From Steroidobacteraceae bacterium (GTDB lineage: Bacteria > Pseudomonadota > Gammaproteobacteria > Steroidobacterales > Steroidobacteraceae): DNA of 64,000 bases. The notes beneath the pieces are model-generated. The model was not told where the DNA came from. It was given only the letters and a program-made list of their open reading frames with translations, and made no database searches. The DNA is taken from positions 124,001-188,000 of the forward strand of contig JANWJS010000020.1 of assembly GCA_025451845.1 (NCBI GenBank), given 5' to 3'. The translations under genes and the position numbers were made by a program. Positions 1,866 to 11,629 of the stretch are shown here, in pieces. Position 1 is the stretch's first letter, and every line of letters begins with the position of its first letter.

Positions 1866-2579
1866 ATGGCCGATAGCGAACCTGTCGTAGCGCTGCTTGC
1901 CGGCGCGAGCGGCTTCGTGGGTACACGCGTCCTCGATGCTTTGCTCAATGCGCCCGAGCTCGCTCGCGTGCTCGCCGTGACGCGCCGTCCTTTGGGGCGA
2001 GAGCACCCACGCCTCGCGAACCGGATCGTTCAATTCGATCATCTGGAGCGGCAGTTGGCGGGGTTGAAATGTCAGGTGGCATTCTGTTGTCTCGGCGCGC
2101 GCCCTGGTGAGCGCGACGCAGACGAGGCGATTCGACGAGTCGATCTCGGCTACACGCTGGCCTTTGCACGCGCAGCGAAAGCCGCGGGTGCGGCGCGCTT
2201 CGTGGTCTTTTCCGCATGGGGGGCGGATGTCGCAGCGAAACGCGGCTATTTGCGCGCCAAGGGCGAGCTCGAGCAGACGCTGACCGGCCTCGGCTTCGGC
2301 GCGCTCGATATCCTGCAGCCCGGCATCGTCCTCGGCTGGCCGCGCGAGATGCGGGCTACCGACCTGGTGAGGCGAGCCATCATGCCGCTCGTGAACCCGT
2401 TTCTCGTCGGTCCGCGCACGGTGCACCGCGGCATTCCCGTCGCGACCGCCGCAGCAGCGATGCTCGGGACCCTGCGGTCGGGCCGCCGCGGTCCACAGCG
2501 CTATGCCTACGAGGGGATTTGCGCGCTCGCGCAACTGCGGCCCCGCCGGCCCCCCGTCCTGGTGCCGGCGACCTCTTAG
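1866..2579 (+). CDS. NAD(P)-binding SDR-like oxidoreductase (TIP30/YbjT-like)
   Basis: A 237-residue atypical short-chain dehydrogenase / NAD(P)H-binding protein. The N-terminal Rossmann motif GASGFVG is at residues 13-19. It is followed by the CCLGARPGERDADEAIRRVD region and a FVVFSAWGAD strand typical of the eukaryotic TIP30/HTATIP2 and bacterial oxidoreductase HTATIP2-like families. A YLRAKGELEQ segment occupies the position of the catalytic Tyr-x3-Lys. Length fits the family (about 210-240). It is probably monocistronic, with a 211-bp upstream gap that holds repeat copy A. Substrate unknown. The 3' end runs into the riboswitch leader of the next gene. Confidence 0.8.
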   Translation: MADSEPVVALLAGASGFVGTRVLDALLNAPELARVLAVTRRPLGREHPRLANRIVQFDHLERQLAGLKCQVAFCCLGARPGERDADEAIRRVDLGYTLAFARAAKAAGAARFVVFSAWGADVAAKRGYLRAKGELEQTLTGLGFGALDILQPGIVLGWPREMRATDLVRRAIMPLVNPFLVGPRTVHRGIPVATAAAAMLGTLRSGRRGPQRYAYEGICALAQLRPRRPPVLVPATS

Positions 2580-2730
2580 CGCTCGGAGAGCGCGAGCGAG
2601 CGCACCTCTACCCCACTATTTCATTGCAAGTCCTTTACATATCGCACGTGCGCTCTACATAAGCGGGAACGCAGCTATTTCCGTGCGGCAACAACCGCAG
2701 TGATTGAGAGCCGTACCACACTCGCGGACC

Positions 2731-2759
2731 TTGACTCCGTAGCGTCAGGCTTCGACACT
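2731..2759 (+). promoter_or_regulatory. Possible sigma70 promoter for the riboswitch transcript
   Basis: TTGACT (2731-2736) is followed after 17 nt by GACACT (2754-2759). The -35 is good and the -10 is poor, matching three of six positions. The spacing would start transcription near 2766, right at the 5' side of the riboswitch aptamer; this fit is the main support. No transcript evidence. Confidence 0.35.
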
Positions 2760-2760
2760 T

Positions 2761-2850
2761 GGCGGCGTGACAAGGGCAAACCTGTCGAAAGGCGGGGACG
2801 CAAAGCCACCGGTCTAAAGGACGTTCCTATGACGGCGGGGCTGCCACGAT
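2761..2850 (+). ncRNA. Cyclic di-GMP-I riboswitch (GEMM-I) aptamer
   Basis: The sequence carries the conserved GEMM-I landmarks in order. GGGCAAACC is at about 2774-2782. A short P2 hairpin closed by a CGAAAGG (GAAA tetraloop) segment follows, then GGGACGCAAAGCC. The tetraloop-receptor-like ACCGGTCTAAAGG is next, and a P3 arm closes with GACGGCGGGGCTGCC. GEMM-I RNAs bind c-di-GMP and control motility, pilus and envelope genes. The target here is the SPOR-like gene starting at 2937. The 5-prime CGTG (2766-2769) can pair with CACG (2845-2848) to close P1. No Rho-independent terminator follows, which suggests translational control. Confidence 0.88.
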
Positions 2851-2871
2851 CGCGTATCCGCGATCGATCGC

Positions 2872-2934
2872 ATTCCCCATCGGCATCTCGAAGCCGCGTC
2901 CTATCGCCTGTGGCTGTTGGACTGTCCGGGGAAT
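2872..2934 (+). promoter_or_regulatory. Candidate riboswitch expression platform (Shine-Dalgarno sequestration)
   Basis: ATTCCCC at 2872-2878 is the exact reverse complement of GGGGAAT at 2928-2934. The latter contains the ribosome-binding GGGGA just upstream of the ATG at 2937. Pairing would bury the ribosome-binding site. A separate 7-bp hairpin (GATCGCG-TATC-CGCGATC, 2848-2865) lies between aptamer and anti-SD and could compete with P1 or with the anti-SD. The pairing is visible in the sequence; its use as the c-di-GMP output is inference. Confidence 0.5.
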
Positions 2935-2936
2935 TT

Positions 2937-4850
2937 ATGACACCAACGGCAAATCTAGCGTCCGCCGAGGATGCAGACCATCCGGCGGCGCCTGCCGCAG
3001 AGGCAGGGCCGTTCGTGCTCAATTTGTGCTCGTCGACCACGCCGATGGCGCTCGCGCAGACCGATCTTCCCGAGCTCAAGCGCTTCACCTTTTTCGTGAG
3101 CCGCCGTTTCGAGGAGGGGCGCGAGCGTTTCCGCCTCCACATGGGATTCTTCGAGACCCAGGCGGAGGCCGAGGAATGGTTGAACGTGGTGCGGGAAATC
3201 TATCCTGGCGCGTGGGCTGGCGAGGCGCCGGGCAAGAAGCTGCGTGCCCGCGCGGCGGAAGCTGCCGCGGCGCAGGCCCGGCACGCGCTCGGCCCGCAGC
3301 ACACCACGGCTGTCGCCGCGTCAGTTTCAACACCCCCCGCAGCCTCCGTCGCGAGCCGGAGTGAGCCACGCGCCGCTGGCCCTCCCAAAGTCCCCACATT
3401 GGTTCCCACGCTTCATCCACCCGCGGCCGCAGCTGCTGGCGTCCGGCCGTCGGCACCTGCGGCTGGCGTTGCGCGGACGGTCGTACCGCAGCCCGCGAAG
3501 GCCGCGCCGCAGTCGTTTGCAAAACGCCTTGGGGCAGGCGTCCCGGCCCAGCGTGTCGCTCCAGCCCCAGCGCGCGCTGCGGCACAAACGCCGATGTCGT
3601 CGCGGGCCACGGCCGCGGCACGTCCCGCGCCCGTATCCCGACCCGCACAGCAGCCTCGCCCCGGCACCCTCTCGGCCAGCGTCCCGACCCAGGTGGGCAA
3701 GGCTGCAGCAAGCAGACCGGCAGCGCCGAAGACGCCCGCGCCCGCTGCGCAAGCAAGGCCGGCCGCGGCACCGATGGCTGCAAAAGCGGCACCGCAGACC
3801 GCATTGCATGCCGCCCGCCAGTCGCCCCAGTCGCCCCAGTCGCCCAAGAAGCCGATCTTTGCCGATTCCAACGTGAAGGAAGTGCTGGCGGCACTGGATG
3901 CGCCCCAGGATCTCACCGGCGAGACGCGCCTCATGGCCGTGCCGCTCGGTCGTACCGACACCGCCGATGACAGCTCGCTCACCGACACCCAGGTGTTGCG
4001 ATTTCTCGAGACGCGCCGAGAGGAAGACGATGTCGGCAAGCCGCAATCCCCGATGCCGGGCGACGCCGGCGCTGAGTCTGGCATCTCACTGCTCAAGCCC
4101 GATGACACCGGTACCCGTCGCGCACTGAAGGAAGCCGTTTCCCACAATGAAGCGGTTTCCTTCGCCGTGCAGCTGCAATGGTCGGTCCAGCCGGTGGCGC
4201 TCGACAAGGTGCCCCCGCTCGCGATCTTCAGTGCCTACACCCTCTACTCCGTCGAGGGCAGCCGTGAAGGACGCAAGTGGTATGGGCTGCGTCTCGGCTT
4301 CTTCAACGACGCGATCTCGGCTAAGCAGGTCGCGTACTACGTGCGCTCGGAGTTCGCGTCGGTCGCCGTGGTGCCGGTGAGTCCGCAGGAGCGCGATCGT
4401 GCCACCGAGGACAACCAGCGGTTTAGCGGTGTCGGCGCTCCCCGCAAACGGCGCGGAAGCGATGACAACGAGTTCAAGCTGATCGATTCTGACGACGCGG
4501 CGGGCGCTGCGGCGCCGGCTACGCCGCCGTCTGCTGCACAAGGTTCTGCCGCACAACCTGCAGTGCCATCCGCTGCACAGCCCCCTGCAAGACAGCCTGC
4601 GTCGGCGACCCGCAACCCCGGTAAGGACAGCGGCAGGGACGGCGGCAAGGTTGGCGCGCGCGAGCGCCGAACTCCGCAGACGCTGGAAGAAACGCTCGAG
4701 ATCCTCGGCGCGAACGAGCTCGCGATCGATGGCGCCAATACTGATACGGCGAGCGACACGGGCGTCCGGCATCTGCGCGTCGAAGTGCAGAAGAACACGC
4801 CGTTCTCCCGATTGCTGGAGCGGCTGAGCGAGCGCGTCAGGAAGACCTGA
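2937..4850 (+). CDS. c-di-GMP-riboswitch-controlled protein with two SPOR-like domains
   Basis: The ATG at 2937 is chosen because it follows the aptamer and a GGGGA ribosome-binding site; the same frame reads open upstream through the riboswitch and should not be used. The product is 637 residues. It has two similar blocks, at about 24-97 (FVLNLCSSTTPMAL, RFRLHMGFFETQAEAEEW) and about 408-482 (FAVQLQWSVQPVAL, KWYGLRLGFFNDAISAKQ). Each looks like a degenerate SPOR domain with the Lxx-GFF core. A long Ala/Pro-rich, low-complexity linker joins them. The C-terminal 60 residues (RTPQTLEETLEILGANELAI) form a separate conserved-looking tail. No signal peptide or transmembrane helix is evident. SPOR domains normally bind denuded peptidoglycan, but without an export signal that role is uncertain. 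Confidence 0.75.
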   Translation: MTPTANLASAEDADHPAAPAAEAGPFVLNLCSSTTPMALAQTDLPELKRFTFFVSRRFEEGRERFRLHMGFFETQAEAEEWLNVVREIYPGAWAGEAPGKKLRARAAEAAAAQARHALGPQHTTAVAASVSTPPAASVASRSEPRAAGPPKVPTLVPTLHPPAAAAAGVRPSAPAAGVARTVVPQPAKAAPQSFAKRLGAGVPAQRVAPAPARAAAQTPMSSRATAAARPAPVSRPAQQPRPGTLSASVPTQVGKAAASRPAAPKTPAPAAQARPAAAPMAAKAAPQTALHAARQSPQSPQSPKKPIFADSNVKEVLAALDAPQDLTGETRLMAVPLGRTDTADDSSLTDTQVLRFLETRREEDDVGKPQSPMPGDAGAESGISLLKPDDTGTRRALKEAVSHNEAVSFAVQLQWSVQPVALDKVPPLAIFSAYTLYSVEGSREGRKWYGLRLGFFNDAISAKQVAYYVRSEFASVAVVPVSPQERDRATEDNQRFSGVGAPRKRRGSDDNEFKLIDSDDAAGAAAPATPPSAAQGSAAQPAVPSAAQPPARQPASATRNPGKDSGRDGGKVGARERRTPQTLEETLEILGANELAIDGANTDTASDTGVRHLRVEVQKNTPFSRLLERLSERVRKT

Positions 4851-5469: not shown

Positions 5470-8400
5470 TCAAGCAATACGCCCCTTGAGAAACGCCTCC
5501 AGAGCCCGGCCGGTGTGGGATTCGCGCTTGCGCCGTGCCACTTCCGCGGGGGCGCCCTGCGCGATGACGCGGCCGCCGCCCTCGCCGGCCTCCGGACCCA
5601 TGTCCACGATCCAGTCCGCCTCCGCCATGACATCTAGGTTGTGCTCCACCACGACAGCGGTATTACCGGCTGCGACCAGCCGGTGCAGCACGTGGATGAG
5701 CTTCTCGACGTCTGCCATGTGCAGGCCCACGGTCGGCTCGTCGAGCACGTACAAGGTGTGCCTCGCGCCTCGCCGCACGCCTGCCGCGGGCCTATCCCCC
5801 TCGCCGCCCTCCGTGCGCACCTTGGAGAGCTCCGCCACGAGCTTGATACGCTGTGCCTCGCCGCCGGAGAGCGTCGGGCTCTGCTGGCCGAGGGTGAGAT
5901 AGCCGAGCCCGACGTCCTGGAGCAGCTTCAGCGCATGGTGAACGCGCGAGTGCGCGCGGAAGAACCCGACCGCCTCGTCCACATCCATCGCGAGAACATC
6001 ACCGATGCTCTTCTCGCGCCAGAGGACCGACAGCGTCTCGGTGTTGAACCGCCGCCCGCCGCAGACATCGCAGAGCACCTTCACGTCCGGCAGGAAGCTC
6101 ATCTCGATGGTCTTGACGCCCTGGCCCTCACAAACCTCGCAGCGGCCGCCCGCGGTGTTGAAGGAGAAGCGGCTCGCGGTGTAGCCCCGCAGCCGCGCCT
6201 CGGTGGTCGCGGCGTAGACGCGCCGGATATCGTCCCACAGCCCGATGTAAGTGGCGGGGCAGGAGCGCGGCGTCTTGCCGATCGGCGTCTGATCGACCTC
6301 CAGCACGCGGTCGACCTGCTCCAGTCCACGCATGCCGGCACAGCCGATGAGCTGCGGCCCGCTCGCACGGCGCCGCGGCCGTGCTCCGTTGAAACTGCCT
6401 CGGCCGGCGTCGCCGAGCAGGCGGCGCAGGTTGGCGTAGAGCACATCGCGCGCCACGGTCGACTTCCCGGAGCCGGAGACGCCCGTGATCACCACCAGCC
6501 TGCCGAGCGGAATGCGCACGTCGGCGCCCCTGACGTTGTGCAGCGATACGCGCTCGAGCTTCAGATGAGGGGTGCGCGCGATCACCGGGCGATAGGGCTG
6601 CGCGGGGTGCTGCAGCGGCTGCCGCAGAAAGCGGCCGGTGGTCGAGCGTGCGTTGTCGATGAGATCCTGCACGGTACCTTCGCCCACCACTTCGCCGCCG
6701 AGCACCCCCGCGCCGGGGCCGAGATCGAGCACGTGGTCGGCGCGGCGAATGGTCTCCTCGTCGTGCTCGACGACGACGAGCGTGTTGCGATGACGCGAGA
6801 GCTCGGCGAGCGAGTCGAGCAGGACCGCATTGTCGCGCGGGTGCAGGCCGATCGTCGGCTCATCGAGGACGTAACACACTCCCTGCAGGTTGGAGCCGAG
6901 CTGCGCGGCCAGGCGGATGCGCTGCGCCTCGCCGCCGGAGAGCGTGGGTGCGGAGCGATCGAGCTGCAGGTAGCCAAGACCCACCCGGTGGAGGAATTTC
7001 AGGCGCGCGCGGATCTCCGCGAGCAGGTCGCGTGCGATCTGTTGCTCCCGCGGCGCGAGCTTCAGCCGCCGGAAGAACTCCGCCGCCTGCGCGACCGAGT
7101 CGGCCGCGAGATCCGCGATGGACCGCTCGCGGAAGCGCACGTTCAGCGCGACGGGATTCAGCCGCTTGCCGGCGCAGCTGCCGCAGGTCTGCGGCGCCTC
7201 ATCGCCCAGGCCGTCGCCGTCCGTCTCAGCGCCTGCCGATTCATCGTCCGTAGCGGGCAGCTCCAGGCCGGTCCCGGAACAGCTCTCGCACCACCCGTGC
7301 TTGGAGTTGTAGGAGAAGAGGCGCGGGTCGAGCTCGGCGAAGCTGCGCCCGCAGGAAGGACAGGCTCGCTTGGTCGAGAAGACCGTCGGCCGCTCCGACT
7401 TTGGACCCAACACATGAACCAGCCCCTTGCCGAAGTCGAGCGCGCGGGCGAGCGCCTGATGCAGGGCGGTATCGGTCTTCGCCCCGACGTCGATTTCCGC
7501 GACAGGGAGCTCGATCGTGTGTTCCTTGAAGCGCGACAGCCGTGGCCATTGCGCCGTGGAGAGATGGGCCCCGTCCACGCGAAGGGTCTTGAAACCCTTC
7601 TTCGCCGCCCATTTCGCCAGATCCGTGTAGTAGCCCTTGCGCGCCATGACCAGAGGAGCGAGCAGCGCGATGCGCGAGCCCCGGTGCTCGCGCAGCAGCC
7701 GCGCGGCGATCGAGGCGGCGCTCTGCGATTCGATCGCGAGCTCGCAATCGGGGCAGTACTGGGTGCCCAGCTTCACGTAGAGGAGCCGCAGGAAATGATA
7801 GATCTCCGTCAGCGTGGCAACGGTGCTCTTGCGGCCGCCGCGGCTGGTGCGCTGCTCGATGGCGACCGTCGGCGGAATCCCGAATATCGCGTCCACATCC
7901 GGCCGGGCGGCGGGCTGGACGAACTGGCGCGCATAGGCGTTGAGCGATTCGAGATAGCGGCGCTGGCCTTCGTTGAAGAGGATGTCGAAGGCCAGTGTCG
8001 ACTTGCCGGAGCCCGACACGCCGGTGATGACCGTGAGCCGGTCCCTCGGGATCTGTACGTCGATGCTCTTGAGGTTGTGCTCGCGCGCGTTGTGGATGAC
8101 TACCGCATTTCGGGCGCGGCCGTTGCCGCTCTTGGCGGGTGACCCGAAGGCCGCCTCGGGCTCGTTGACCGCAGCGGGCGGCGCGGGCGCGAGCGGCATC
8201 GGCTCGCCGCCCGAAATGGCCCGCTCGTAATCCGCGAGCGCTCGCCCGGTGTGCGAATCCGGGTGGGCGCGCACTTCGTCCGCCGTACCCGCACAGATGA
8301 GGCGCCCGCCGCGCTCGCCGCCCTCGGGACCGAGATCGATGATCCAGTCTGCGGCGCGGATCACATCGAGGTTGTGCTCGATGACGAGCAGCGAATGTCC

Positions 8401-11304
8401 CGCGGCGAGCAGCTTGCGAAACGCCGTGAGGAGCTTCGCCACGTCCTGGAAATGCAGCCCCGTGGTCGGCTCGTCGAAGAGGAAGAGCTTGCCCTTGTGC
8501 GTGGTGCTCGACAGCACCGAGCCGGCCTCGGCGAGATGTCCGGCCAGCTTCAGCCGCTGCGCCTCGCCGCCCGATAAAGTGGGCACCGGCTGCCCGAGCG
8601 TCACGTACTCCAGGCCCACATCCGAGAGGGGCGCGAGGCGCGCGGCGACCTCGCGCGAGTCGCGGAAGAACTCGAGTGCCTCGGTGACCGTCATCTGCAG
8701 GACATCTGCAATGCTGGCCCGGCGTCCGTTCGTCCCTTCGCGCTTGATCTCCAGCACCTCATCGCGATAGCGGCGGCCGTTGCAGTCGGGGCAGCGCAGA
8801 TAGACGTCGGAGAGGAACTGCATCTCGACGTGCTCGAAGCCATTGCCGTTGCAGGTCGGACAGCGCCCGTTGCCGGAGTTGAAGCTGAAGGTGCCCGCCG
8901 TGTACTTGCGCTCCTGCGCGGCGGGCTCCGCCGCGAAGAGGTTGCGGATGGCATCGAAGGCGCCGACGTAGCTTGCCGGGTTGGAACGGGTGGTCCGGCC
9001 GATGGGAGTCTGATCGACCATGACGACATCGTCGATCAGCTCCGCGCCGGCAAGCCCCGAGAACGGTCCGGGGGCCTCGGTCGGCTTGCCGTGATACTTG
9101 AGGAGAGCCGGGTAGAGCACATCCTCGATGAGGGTGGACTTGCCGGAGCCGGAAACACCGGTGACGCAGACCAGGCGCTTGAGCGGTATCCGGACATCGA
9201 CGTCCTTGAGGTTGTGTTGGCGGGCGCCGCGCAACTCGAGCCAGCGGTTGGAGCGGGCTTCTGCTACCACCTCGCCGCGGGAGGCGGTGAGGCCGGTATC
9301 GCGACCGCGTGCGCCACCGACCTGCCGCTTGCCACTGAGATACTCCCCCGTGAGTGAGCGGGCGTCGCGGCGGATCTCGCGCGGGGAGCCGAAGAACACG
9401 ATTGCGCCGCCGCGCTCCCCCGCGCCCGGGCCCATGTCGAGGATGCGGTCCGCCTCCAGCATGATCTGCGGATCGTGTTCCACGACGAGCAGCGAGTTGC
9501 CGGCGTCGCGCAATCGCTTCATCACCCGGATGACCCGCTGCATGTCGCGCGGGTGCAGGCCGATCGACGGCTCGTCCAGGACGAAAAGCGTGTTGACGAG
9601 CGAAGTGCCGAGCGCGGTCGTCAGATTGATCCGCTGCACTTCGCCGCCGGAGAGCGTGCGCGACTGGCGATCGAGCGTCAGGTAACCGAGCCCGACGTCA
9701 GCGAGGTAGCCGAAGCGGCCGCGGATCTCCCCGAGCAGCAGATCCGTCGCCTCATCGAGCGGCCGCGGCAACTGCAGCCGGCGGAAGAAGTCACAGGCGC
9801 GCTCCACGGGCATCAGCATCAGGTCATGGATGGACAATCCGGGGAGGCTTTGCAGCACCTCTTCGGTCCATGCGACGCCTCGCGGCTGAAAGCGCGCGGC
9901 AGTGCCCAGCGCGGCATCGGCGAGCGCGCGGTCGCCCACCCGCCACAGCAGTCCCTGTGTCTTCAGCCGTGCGCCGCCGCAGGCTTCGCAGGGCGTATAG
10001 GCGCGGTAGCGTGACAGGAGAACCCGCACGTGCATCTTGTAGGAACGGCCCTCGAGCCACGCGAAGAAGCGCCTGGCGCCGTACCAGACGGCCTTGCTCC
10101 AGTCGCCTTCGCCCTCGACGACCCACCGCCGGTGCTCGGATTTCAACTCGCGCCAGGGGACATCGAGCGGGATGCCGCGCTTCTTCGCGAACTTCTCCAT
10201 GTCTTGCTGGCACTCCACGTATGACTTGGTCTGCCAGGGCTTCACGGCACCGTTGCGCAATGAGCGCGTCTCATCAGGAATCACGAGGCCGTAATCGATG
10301 CCTATGGTTCGGCCGAACCCGCGGCAGGTATCGCATGCACCGACAGGCGAGTTGAATGAGAAGAGGCTGGGCGTCGGTTCCTGGTAGGAGCGGTCGCACT
10401 CCGCGCAGTGCAGGGCGCTCGAATAGCGCCAGGTGGCGAGCGGCCGCGGCGGGTCACTGTCGTCAACGACCCGCACGTTGACGCGGCCGCGGCCGACACG
10501 CAACGCGCTCTCGAGCGACTCGAGCACGCGGCCGCGCTCCGCCTGGCCGGCGCGGAAGCGATCCTGCACCACCTCCAGCACCTTTGCGCTGCGGGCCGCG
10601 GAGCGCGCCGATTGGGCCCGCCTGGCGCGCGCGCCGCGCTTCGCAGGGGTCGGCCGCGAATCAACCGCTGCGCCGGCAGCCTGCGCCCGGCGAGCCTCGG
10701 CGGCGGAAGATCCGTCGCTCCCCTCGAAAAGCCTCGTGTAGCCTTGCTTCTCGAGCAGTGCACGGACCTCTGCCTCCTGGAAGCTGTCGGGCACGGGCAC
10801 CGGAAAGGTGAGCAGCAGTCGCGGATCGCCCCCGGCCTCGCGCGCTGCGCCCCAGGCTTGCGCACGCTCCCGCAAGTCAGTGTAAATACTGTCGGCGGTG
10901 TCACGCCGAACCGGGCGGCCGCAGCACTCGCAATAGAGCGTCCCCGCGCGCGCAAACAACAACTTCAGGTGATCGTTGAGCTCCGTCATGGTGCCCACGG
11001 TCGAACGCGATGTGCGCACCGGGTTGGTTTGATCGATGGCGATGGCCGGAGGGATGCCCGCTATCGAATCCACCTGCGGCTTGTCCATGCGGTCGAGAAA
11101 TTGCCGCGCGTAGGGCGAGAAAGTCTCCACGTAACGCCGCTGGCCTTCCGCGTACAGCGTGTCGAAGACGAGCGAGGACTTGCCGGAGCCTGACACGCCC
11201 GTTACCACGACGAGCTCGTTGAGCGGCACGTCGAGGTCGAGATTCTTCAGATTGTTCTGGCGCGCGCCGCGCACGAGAATCGAATCATGAGGGGCGTCGG
11301 TCAT
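5470..11304 (-). CDS. uvrA: Tandem (double-length) excinuclease UvrA
   Basis: DNA-damage recognition ATPase of nucleotide excision repair, about 1944 residues, roughly twice a canonical UvrA (about 940). Start taken at the ATG at 11304 ([20 protein letters not shown]), which matches UvrA N-termini; an upstream in-frame start adds 18 unlikely residues. Four ABC cassettes are visible, each with GVSGSGKS Walker A (first at 36-43) and an LSGGE signature: [31 protein letters not shown] and [11 protein letters not shown]. Zinc modules with CxxC pairs occur in both halves ([24 protein letters not shown] and others). The second half carries the [20 protein letters not shown] motif of the UvrA2-like branch. 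Single polypeptide with no internal stop. It is divergent from the cystathionine operon. Whether this genome also has a normal uvrA is not visible. Confidence 0.93.
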
Positions 11305-11629
11305 TCCGTCACCGGTGTCGACATGGCGTCTCGGGGAAAGGGCGGAAAGGGAGGGCAACGGCGAGCGGGAACCGCTCGCGGATGCGCCGATTTTACCTTA
11401 AATATGGGCTGCGCGGCGATGCGCAAGGGCACGCGCAAGCGATACAGTAGCTGCAGCCGACAATCACTGGATAGCCTCGCAGACCACTGGCGTACAATCA
11501 GGGCGCCGGCCGAAAGCAAGCCCATCAGCGGGCCAAAGCCGCCTTTGGACCGCGGGCCGGACGCAGTACATACCGTTGCCGCTCAAAGCGCTGCAGCCGA
11601 CTTTGAGCCAATGCACAAGCAGGAATACC
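11305..11629. promoter_or_regulatory. Divergent intergenic region uvrA / cystathionine beta-synthase
   Basis: 325 bp serving both directions. A TACAAT -10-like box at 11493-11498 points toward the cystathionine operon, with a weak -35. On the minus strand a TAAAAT box lies in the AT-rich patch near 11390 and could serve uvrA. No full LexA box (CTGT-N8-ACAG) was found; only a half site occurs near 11450. The right part contains the two-hairpin element described separately. Confidence 0.35.
11531..11610 (+). repeat. Two-hairpin leader element, copy D (upstream of cystathionine beta-synthase)
   Basis: Hairpin 1 is CCAAAG-CCGC-CTTTGG (11533-11548). After 32 nt containing ACGCAGT, hairpin 2 is GCTCAAAG and CTTTGAGC around a 12-nt loop (11581-11608), followed by CCAAT. 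The start codon of the next gene lies 21 nt downstream. The same arrangement occurs at 44994-45074, before minD. Between copies, one pair in each stem changes in a compensatory way (A-T to G-C in hairpin 1, T-A to G-C in hairpin 2). Structured leader RNA or dispersed palindrome; function not established. Confidence 0.6.

Follow-up and report, generated by a model that had tools for sequence, protein, structure and literature searches.

On balance, we favour the reading that a 637-residue protein encoded in the window (the whole 64,000-nt stretch of DNA analysed here, from a Steroidobacteraceae bacterium of an uncultured group) is controlled at translation by a c-di-GMP-I riboswitch acting as an OFF switch. 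Legible in the sequence are the aptamer with its canonical contacts, a pyrimidine tract with two possible pairing partners, and no terminator-like site. As predicted by folding, in the ligand-free state the tract (2872–2878) and segments around 2896–2915 would invade both strands of aptamer helix P3, leaving the ribosome-binding site (RBS) more open (ON). With c-di-GMP bound, the aptamer would hold P3 and release the tract, which together with two nested helices would close the Shine–Dalgarno (SD) stretch GGGGAAU at 2928–2934 (OFF). We infer this OFF direction, in which protein output would fall at high c-di-GMP; c-di-GMP would be the ligand in the cell, and the decision would fall while the RNA is still being transcribed, no later than the emergence of the SD. 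The host assembly (4.4 Mb, 58 contigs) contains 32 GGDEF matches, and c-di-GMP is therefore probably made in the host. The locus comprises the following elements.

2731–2736, + strand: putative −35 element TTGACT, from sequence and conservation in orthologous leaders
2754–2759, + strand: putative −10 element GACACT, from sequence and conservation in orthologous leaders
2766–2849, + strand: c-di-GMP-I (GEMM-I) aptamer, from cmscan and covariance-model scores
2767–2769, + strand: P1 5′ strand GUG, whose pairing with CAC 2845–2847 is imposed in the aptamer-forced folds
2775, 2802 and 2844, + strand: ligand contacts G2775 (G20), A2802 (A47) and C2844 (C92), mapped by hand onto Vc2 numbering
2787–2790, + strand: GAAA tetraloop
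2804–2814, + strand: P3 5′ strand, of which 2804–2813 is captured by 2906–2915 in the predicted ligand-free fold
2831–2842, + strand: P3 3′ strand with GGGG 2837–2840, with which the switch tract pairs in the predicted ligand-free fold
2847–2866, + strand: hairpin of 7–8 bp common to both predicted folds
2872–2878, + strand: switch tract AUUCCCC, predicted partner of the P3 GGGG in the free fold and of the SD 2928–2934 in the aptamer-forced fold
2882–2926, + strand: nested sequestor helices 2882–2887/2920–2926 and 2892–2898/2909–2915 of the aptamer-forced fold
2928–2934, + strand: SD stretch GGGGAAU, from sequence and folding
2937–4850, + strand: 637-residue gene with two SPOR-like domains (approximately residues 25–100 and 401–497) and an Ala/Pro-rich linker between them

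Situated between an NAD(P)-binding/epimerase-like gene (1866–2579) and the gene at 2937 is the aptamer, and the original prediction of a GEMM-I aptamer directly before that gene is borne out by the covariance models: at 2766–2849, RF01051 scores 79.3 bits (gathering cut-off 35) and RF03167 (c-di-GMP-I-GGC) 72.9 bits (cut-off 59), both above threshold. In the cmscan of the whole window, which left out one overlapping clan match at this site, RF03167 is the sole listed gathering-level Rfam match (E = 2.3e-15). It was presumably retained as the best match owing to its lower E-value, the genome-scan values being 3.7e-17 for RF03167 and 9.7e-16 for RF01051.

The name GGC we take to denote positions 20, 47 and 92, and the RF03167 consensus carries G at the position of A47, where the window has A2802. 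All 33 orthologous leaders fit the pattern GACGCAAAG, A47 being kept in every one; a leader pattern requiring the G20, A47 and C92 bases matches 31 of 31 leaders, and all 33 when its other positions are slightly loosened. G20, A47 and C92 are the ligand-contacting bases in Vc2, as given in passages of PMC3764141 and PMC4744006. Because these contacts are intact and the RF03167 consensus G47 is absent, the window RNA is, judged by its bases, a canonical c-di-GMP-I aptamer. A c-di-GMP-I-GGC variant sensing another ligand is highly improbable: RF03167 is the best cmscan match and has the lower genome-scan E-value, but this reading was rejected on the A47 present in the window as in the 33 leaders, and RF01051 gives more bits. 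The literature searched contains no mention of RF03167. An open reading frame at 2700–4850 stays open through the aptamer; its start was rejected as the true one, since the aptamer-to-ATG lengths in orthologues vary with no frame being kept and ATG 2937 is where the conserved protein begins.

Genomes were compared with a profile of the 637-residue protein, which matches 34 of 60. Besides the own genome, these are 33 of the 36 congeneric genomes; none of the 23 genomes from the order's other genera has a match, so that within these 60 the family is found in one genus only. RF03167 has a far broader distribution and occurs in 53 of these 60 genomes. The relatives include metagenome-assembled genomes (titled Gammaproteobacteria or Proteobacteria), and all 28 whose contig includes the start of the full-length gene have an aptamer before it. 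Together with the window leader (L001) and four named records (L037, L038, L039 and L044) they make up the 33 leaders, which come from related species within one genus and form sets that are not independent. Clade A (16 leaders) has the SD stretch CGGGGAA; clade B (17 leaders) has the P3 tip UUCGGG and no CGGGGAA-type SD.

Directly 5′ of the aptamer, all 33 leaders carry TTGAC and GA(A/C/G)ACT separated by a spacer of exactly 17 nt. A sigma-70 consensus scan lists no site for the TTGACT/GACACT candidate, and GACACT is a poor TATAAT, with three of six positions fitting. If this putative promoter is real, the transcript would start near 2766, with the opening bases of the 3-bp P1. Just 5′ of the −35 element (window 2700–2730), clade A leaders share a conserved TGAGAGCCG...CACATTT-like block, weaker in clade B, which is possibly an activator site. 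The 16S rRNA, as a source for reading the ribosomal anti-SD, was not found in the host assembly.

Folded without constraint, the window leader lacks the aptamer and forms 2833–2840/2875–2882, 2842–2844/2870–2872, 2804–2813/2906–2915 and 2818–2824/2896–2902, the same minimum-energy fold being obtained in three separate foldings. Both P3 strands are captured in this predicted fold; among the captors, besides 2896–2902 and 2906–2915, is the tract that had been taken for an anti-SD. Once the aptamer is imposed, the SD becomes the tract's partner (mean pair probability 0.97), and the two nested helices form as well. As its two partners, the P3 GGGG and the SD, are mutually exclusive, the tract would couple the ligand to the SD. 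SD:linker pairing in the window leader is 0.01 free and 0.85 forced, a difference reached by 0 of 60 shuffles, and the drop in SD accessibility on forcing is reached by 1 of 60. For this leader alone, 7 of 60 shuffles reach the P3-GGGG:linker pairing and 12 of 60 the forced SD:linker pairing, and the SD is only 44% unpaired in the free fold.

The predicted cost of keeping the aptamer in this leader reaches a maximum of 17.6 kcal/mol at a point 64 nt downstream of the aptamer and is about 6.0 kcal/mol once the SD has just been transcribed, a fall that fits the sequestor compensating for the released tract. It climbs back to 14.3 kcal/mol with 30 nt of coding sequence added, so that ligand energy and kinetics would be needed to hold the OFF state. 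The folds and energies come from ViennaRNA, which ignores tertiary contacts and kinetics.

Several local features of the original prediction stand as described: ATTCCCC (2872–2878) is an exact 7-nt complement of GGGGAAT (2928–2934) ahead of the ATG at 2937, a 7-bp hairpin (GATCGCG 2848–2854/CGCGATC 2859–2865, to which the free fold adds C2847–G2866) lies between P1 and the tract, and no terminator-like site occurs in 2560–3000 (0 found; shuffle mean 0.4). A Watson–Crick run of 7 between the linker and the 14 nt before the ATG is reached in 2.3% of 1000 dinucleotide-shuffled linkers (P = 0.023); with G–U pairs allowed, 25.7% of 300 linker shuffles match the observed RBS:linker run. The leader at 2766–2966 folds with z = −2.14 (5 of 200 shuffles fold as well), and 2848–2966 folded alone gives hairpin plus sequestor with z of only −0.92 (30 of 200).

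Across the orthologous leaders, accessibility was taken as the unpaired probability of the RBS (−14 to +6), free minus aptamer-forced, and compared with 50 sets of refolded leaders in which the linker was shuffled with its first 22 nt kept (16 clade A and 17 clade B leaders). Forcing the aptamer lowers mean RBS accessibility by 0.12 in clade A (shuffles 0.01, s.d. 0.02) and by 0.11 in clade B (shuffles 0.00, s.d. 0.02), and none of the 50 sets reaches either value. Support per sequence is modest, a median of 4 (clade A) and 6 (clade B) of 50 shuffles reaching the observed RBS change. Pairing of the P3 GGGG with the linker in the free ensemble is 0.81 in clade A (0.35 shuffled) and 0.74 in clade B (0.43 shuffled), and exceeds 0.7 in 25 of 31 single leaders. 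An earlier control in which the whole linker was shuffled (14 + 17 leaders, 60 sets) agrees for the RBS drop and the P3-GGGG:linker pairing; the sole disagreeing measure is the free-ensemble SD:linker pairing of clade B, which is no different from shuffles.

For the 8-nt SD itself, 19 of 31 leaders show a loss of accessibility on forcing, six show a change of no more than 0.01 (L010, L013, L019, L021, L029 and L036) and six show a gain (L012, L020, L025, L030, L032 and L035); L025 goes the opposite way despite an exact 7-bp pairing. Raw complementarity between the P3 3′ strand and the linker was dropped as evidence, since over the 33 leaders its duplex energy does not improve on that obtained after shuffling the linker (mean z +0.35).

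The SD:tract pairing, whose conservation in orthologous leaders the original prediction called for, is kept in part of the set. It is exact over 7 bp in 4 of 33 leaders: L001, L019, L025 and L037, the last three with shuffle P values of 0.061, 0.027 and 0.044. In L062 it is compensated, CUUCCCCG facing CGGGGAAG over 8 bp (P = 0.021) with the outer A–U now C–G. It is weaker or shifted in five further leaders of clade A, with G–U pairs or in another register: CUUCUCCG or CUUCCUCG is predicted to pair with CGGGGAAG in L012, L038 and L039, and UCUUCCUU or UCUUCCU with GGGGAAGA or GGGAAGA in L017 and L022. From the 17 leaders of clade B it is absent, and their RBS, where closed, is closed by other predicted pairings. 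A CGCUCG/CGAGCG pairing, seen by eye in some clade B leaders and absent in others, was dropped. The aptamer of L062 has GGAG in place of GGGG in its P3 3′ strand, which breaks one P3 pair; this strand still pairs with the UUCC tract of the L062 leader.

Covariation was assessed by swapping linkers between species. In clade A the own linker pairs better than other species' linkers, both with the P3 tip (P = 0.0068, n = 14) and with the SD under a narrower definition (P = 0.0059, n = 16; under the first, wider definition P = 0.054, n = 14). The clade B swaps give P = 0.32 for the P3 tip and 0.099 (narrower) or 0.14 (wider) for the SD. Four paralogous leaders, three of which (L002, L084 and L085) have SD:tract pairings of 7–9 bp, give P = 0.67 for the SD (narrower definition); all 37 leaders together give P = 0.0046.

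Among other accounts of the locus, it is very unlikely that AUUCCCC serves solely as an anti-SD, with switching between hairpin/P1 and anti-SD and without an anti-aptamer fold. Linker and RBS alone do fold into hairpin plus sequestor, and the 7-bp run is uncommon among shuffled linkers, but hairpin, sequestor and folded aptamer coexist, so that nothing would couple the ligand to the SD, and the free-ensemble pairing of the P3 GGGG with the linker, high in most leaders, lies above shuffles. The hairpin and P1, originally proposed as competing structures, overlap by no more than one or two nucleotides; the hairpin is present in both folds and the two barely compete, and a hairpin-versus-P1 switch was rejected on this small overlap. 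Translational control by c-di-GMP through SD sequestration is still the best reading, with the anti-aptamer fold as the competing structure instead.

It is unlikely that control works mainly on transcription or RNA stability (Rho, for example, could act on the untranslated, C-rich leader) and that RBS closure is a by-product or trigger. RBS closure can expose RNA to Rho, and the linker is indeed C-rich, but no intrinsic terminator-like site was found in 2560–3000. Expression raised by c-di-GMP is distinctly unlikely: the 8-nt SD is more accessible with the aptamer forced in the six leaders named above, and Vc1 of Vibrio cholerae needs c-di-GMP for expression (according to passages of PMC4744006), but mean RBS accessibility falls on forcing in both clades, unlike in the shuffles.

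For the translational OFF switch favoured here, we offer a further proposal tentatively, as a possibility open to real doubt: that the platform has been rewired within one genus under a nearly unchanged promoter and aptamer. In clade A the pyrimidine tract would close the GGGGAA SD, in clade B this SD would have been lost and other pairings used, and both would keep the anti-aptamer fold and the OFF logic. If true, the leaders would offer a naturally occurring series in which the evolution of riboswitch platforms could be followed.

The product of the controlled gene has no signal peptide apparent by eye, and no PDB chain matches it in sequence with an E of 1 or below. Pfam SPOR (PF05036) scores 17.4 bits on the 637-residue protein, below the 21-bit cut-off, and 39 domain sequences gave no Pfam match at E 0.01. 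The full-length AF2 model was unusable (mean pLDDT 40.5). The second domain, modelled from the 39 sequences (mean pLDDT 82), is ordered strand-helix-strand-strand-helix-strand plus a final helix, and its three best Foldseek matches are the SPOR domains of CwlC, DamX and RlpA, with weak E-values of 0.011 to 0.10 and none under 0.001. By VIA, RlpA ranks second (Z 7.2, r.m.s.d. 2.6, 72 aligned) after the exported protein 6ozd (Z 7.7), Z values under 8 being common by the tool's own statement. The second domain is likely to have a SPOR-like fold. Elsewhere in the window, on the reverse strand (5470–11358), is a UvrA-like open reading frame of 1962 residues, roughly double the size of the UvrA models (924–943), which match it in four stretches; it is perhaps a fused double UvrA.

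The own genome holds seven c-di-GMP-I-like matches at E up to 0.001 (the window locus and L002–L007), six of them above the RF01051 cut-off and four above that of RF03167. The others precede a short paralogue of the SPOR-like gene, an Ig/fn3 protein, an M23 peptidase, PilM and two fn3 proteins, the aptamers of the two fn3 genes lying about 745 bp apart. These positions, before Ig/fn3, M23 peptidase, PilM and fn3 genes, suggest that c-di-GMP governs a regulon of genes for the cell surface, pili and the cell wall. By pattern, the short paralogue has an aptamer in 4 of 7 loci (L002, L083, L084 and L085), that is, the own L002 and three of six fetched stretches, one of which (L088) is only 225 bases long. 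Two relatives from other families of the order (G042 and G045) give 22 and 16 RF03167 matches (E up to 0.001), a seemingly large number of c-di-GMP-I-like aptamers for a single genome. In the literature searched, a c-di-GMP riboswitch and a SPOR domain occur together only in one paper, on Acidithiobacillus CsrA.

The analysis names concrete bases through which a c-di-GMP-I riboswitch is predicted to control translation, and it connects c-di-GMP with a protein carrying two SPOR-like domains and with a few surface, pilus and cell-wall genes of the same genome. The 33 leaders can be compared as a set: aptamer and promoter hardly change across them, and the platform does. Among the papers listed in the literature search, none bears on translational c-di-GMP-I work in Gammaproteobacteria; for the class as such, sequester/anti-sequester translational control has already been described (in passages of PMC11218506).

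Compared with known systems, the window leader resembles the Vc2 type (RF01051) in aptamer structure, GAAA tetraloop, G20/A47/C92 and 5′ leader position, and differs from it in its target gene, in a 3-bp P1 at the putative transcript start, in the predicted capture of both P3 strands and in a tract common to P3 and SD. With RF03167 it shares a score above gathering, and it departs from that consensus in having A47 for G. Like Bc1 of Bacillus thuringiensis, as portrayed in parts of PMC11218506, it combines a c-di-GMP-I aptamer with a long platform; there, the RBS and AUG are trapped with c-di-GMP bound (Fig. 4 of that paper), and Bc1 has two intrinsic terminators, whereas none was found in the window leader. 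Riboswitches of the c-di-GMP-I class acting by sequestering are already known, and the leader as modelled here is another such switch, with a well-defined predicted platform. The less usual features, to judge from the folds, are that one tract serves both P3 and SD, that both P3 strands are captured and that the platform changes within a genus while aptamer and promoter stay nearly fixed.
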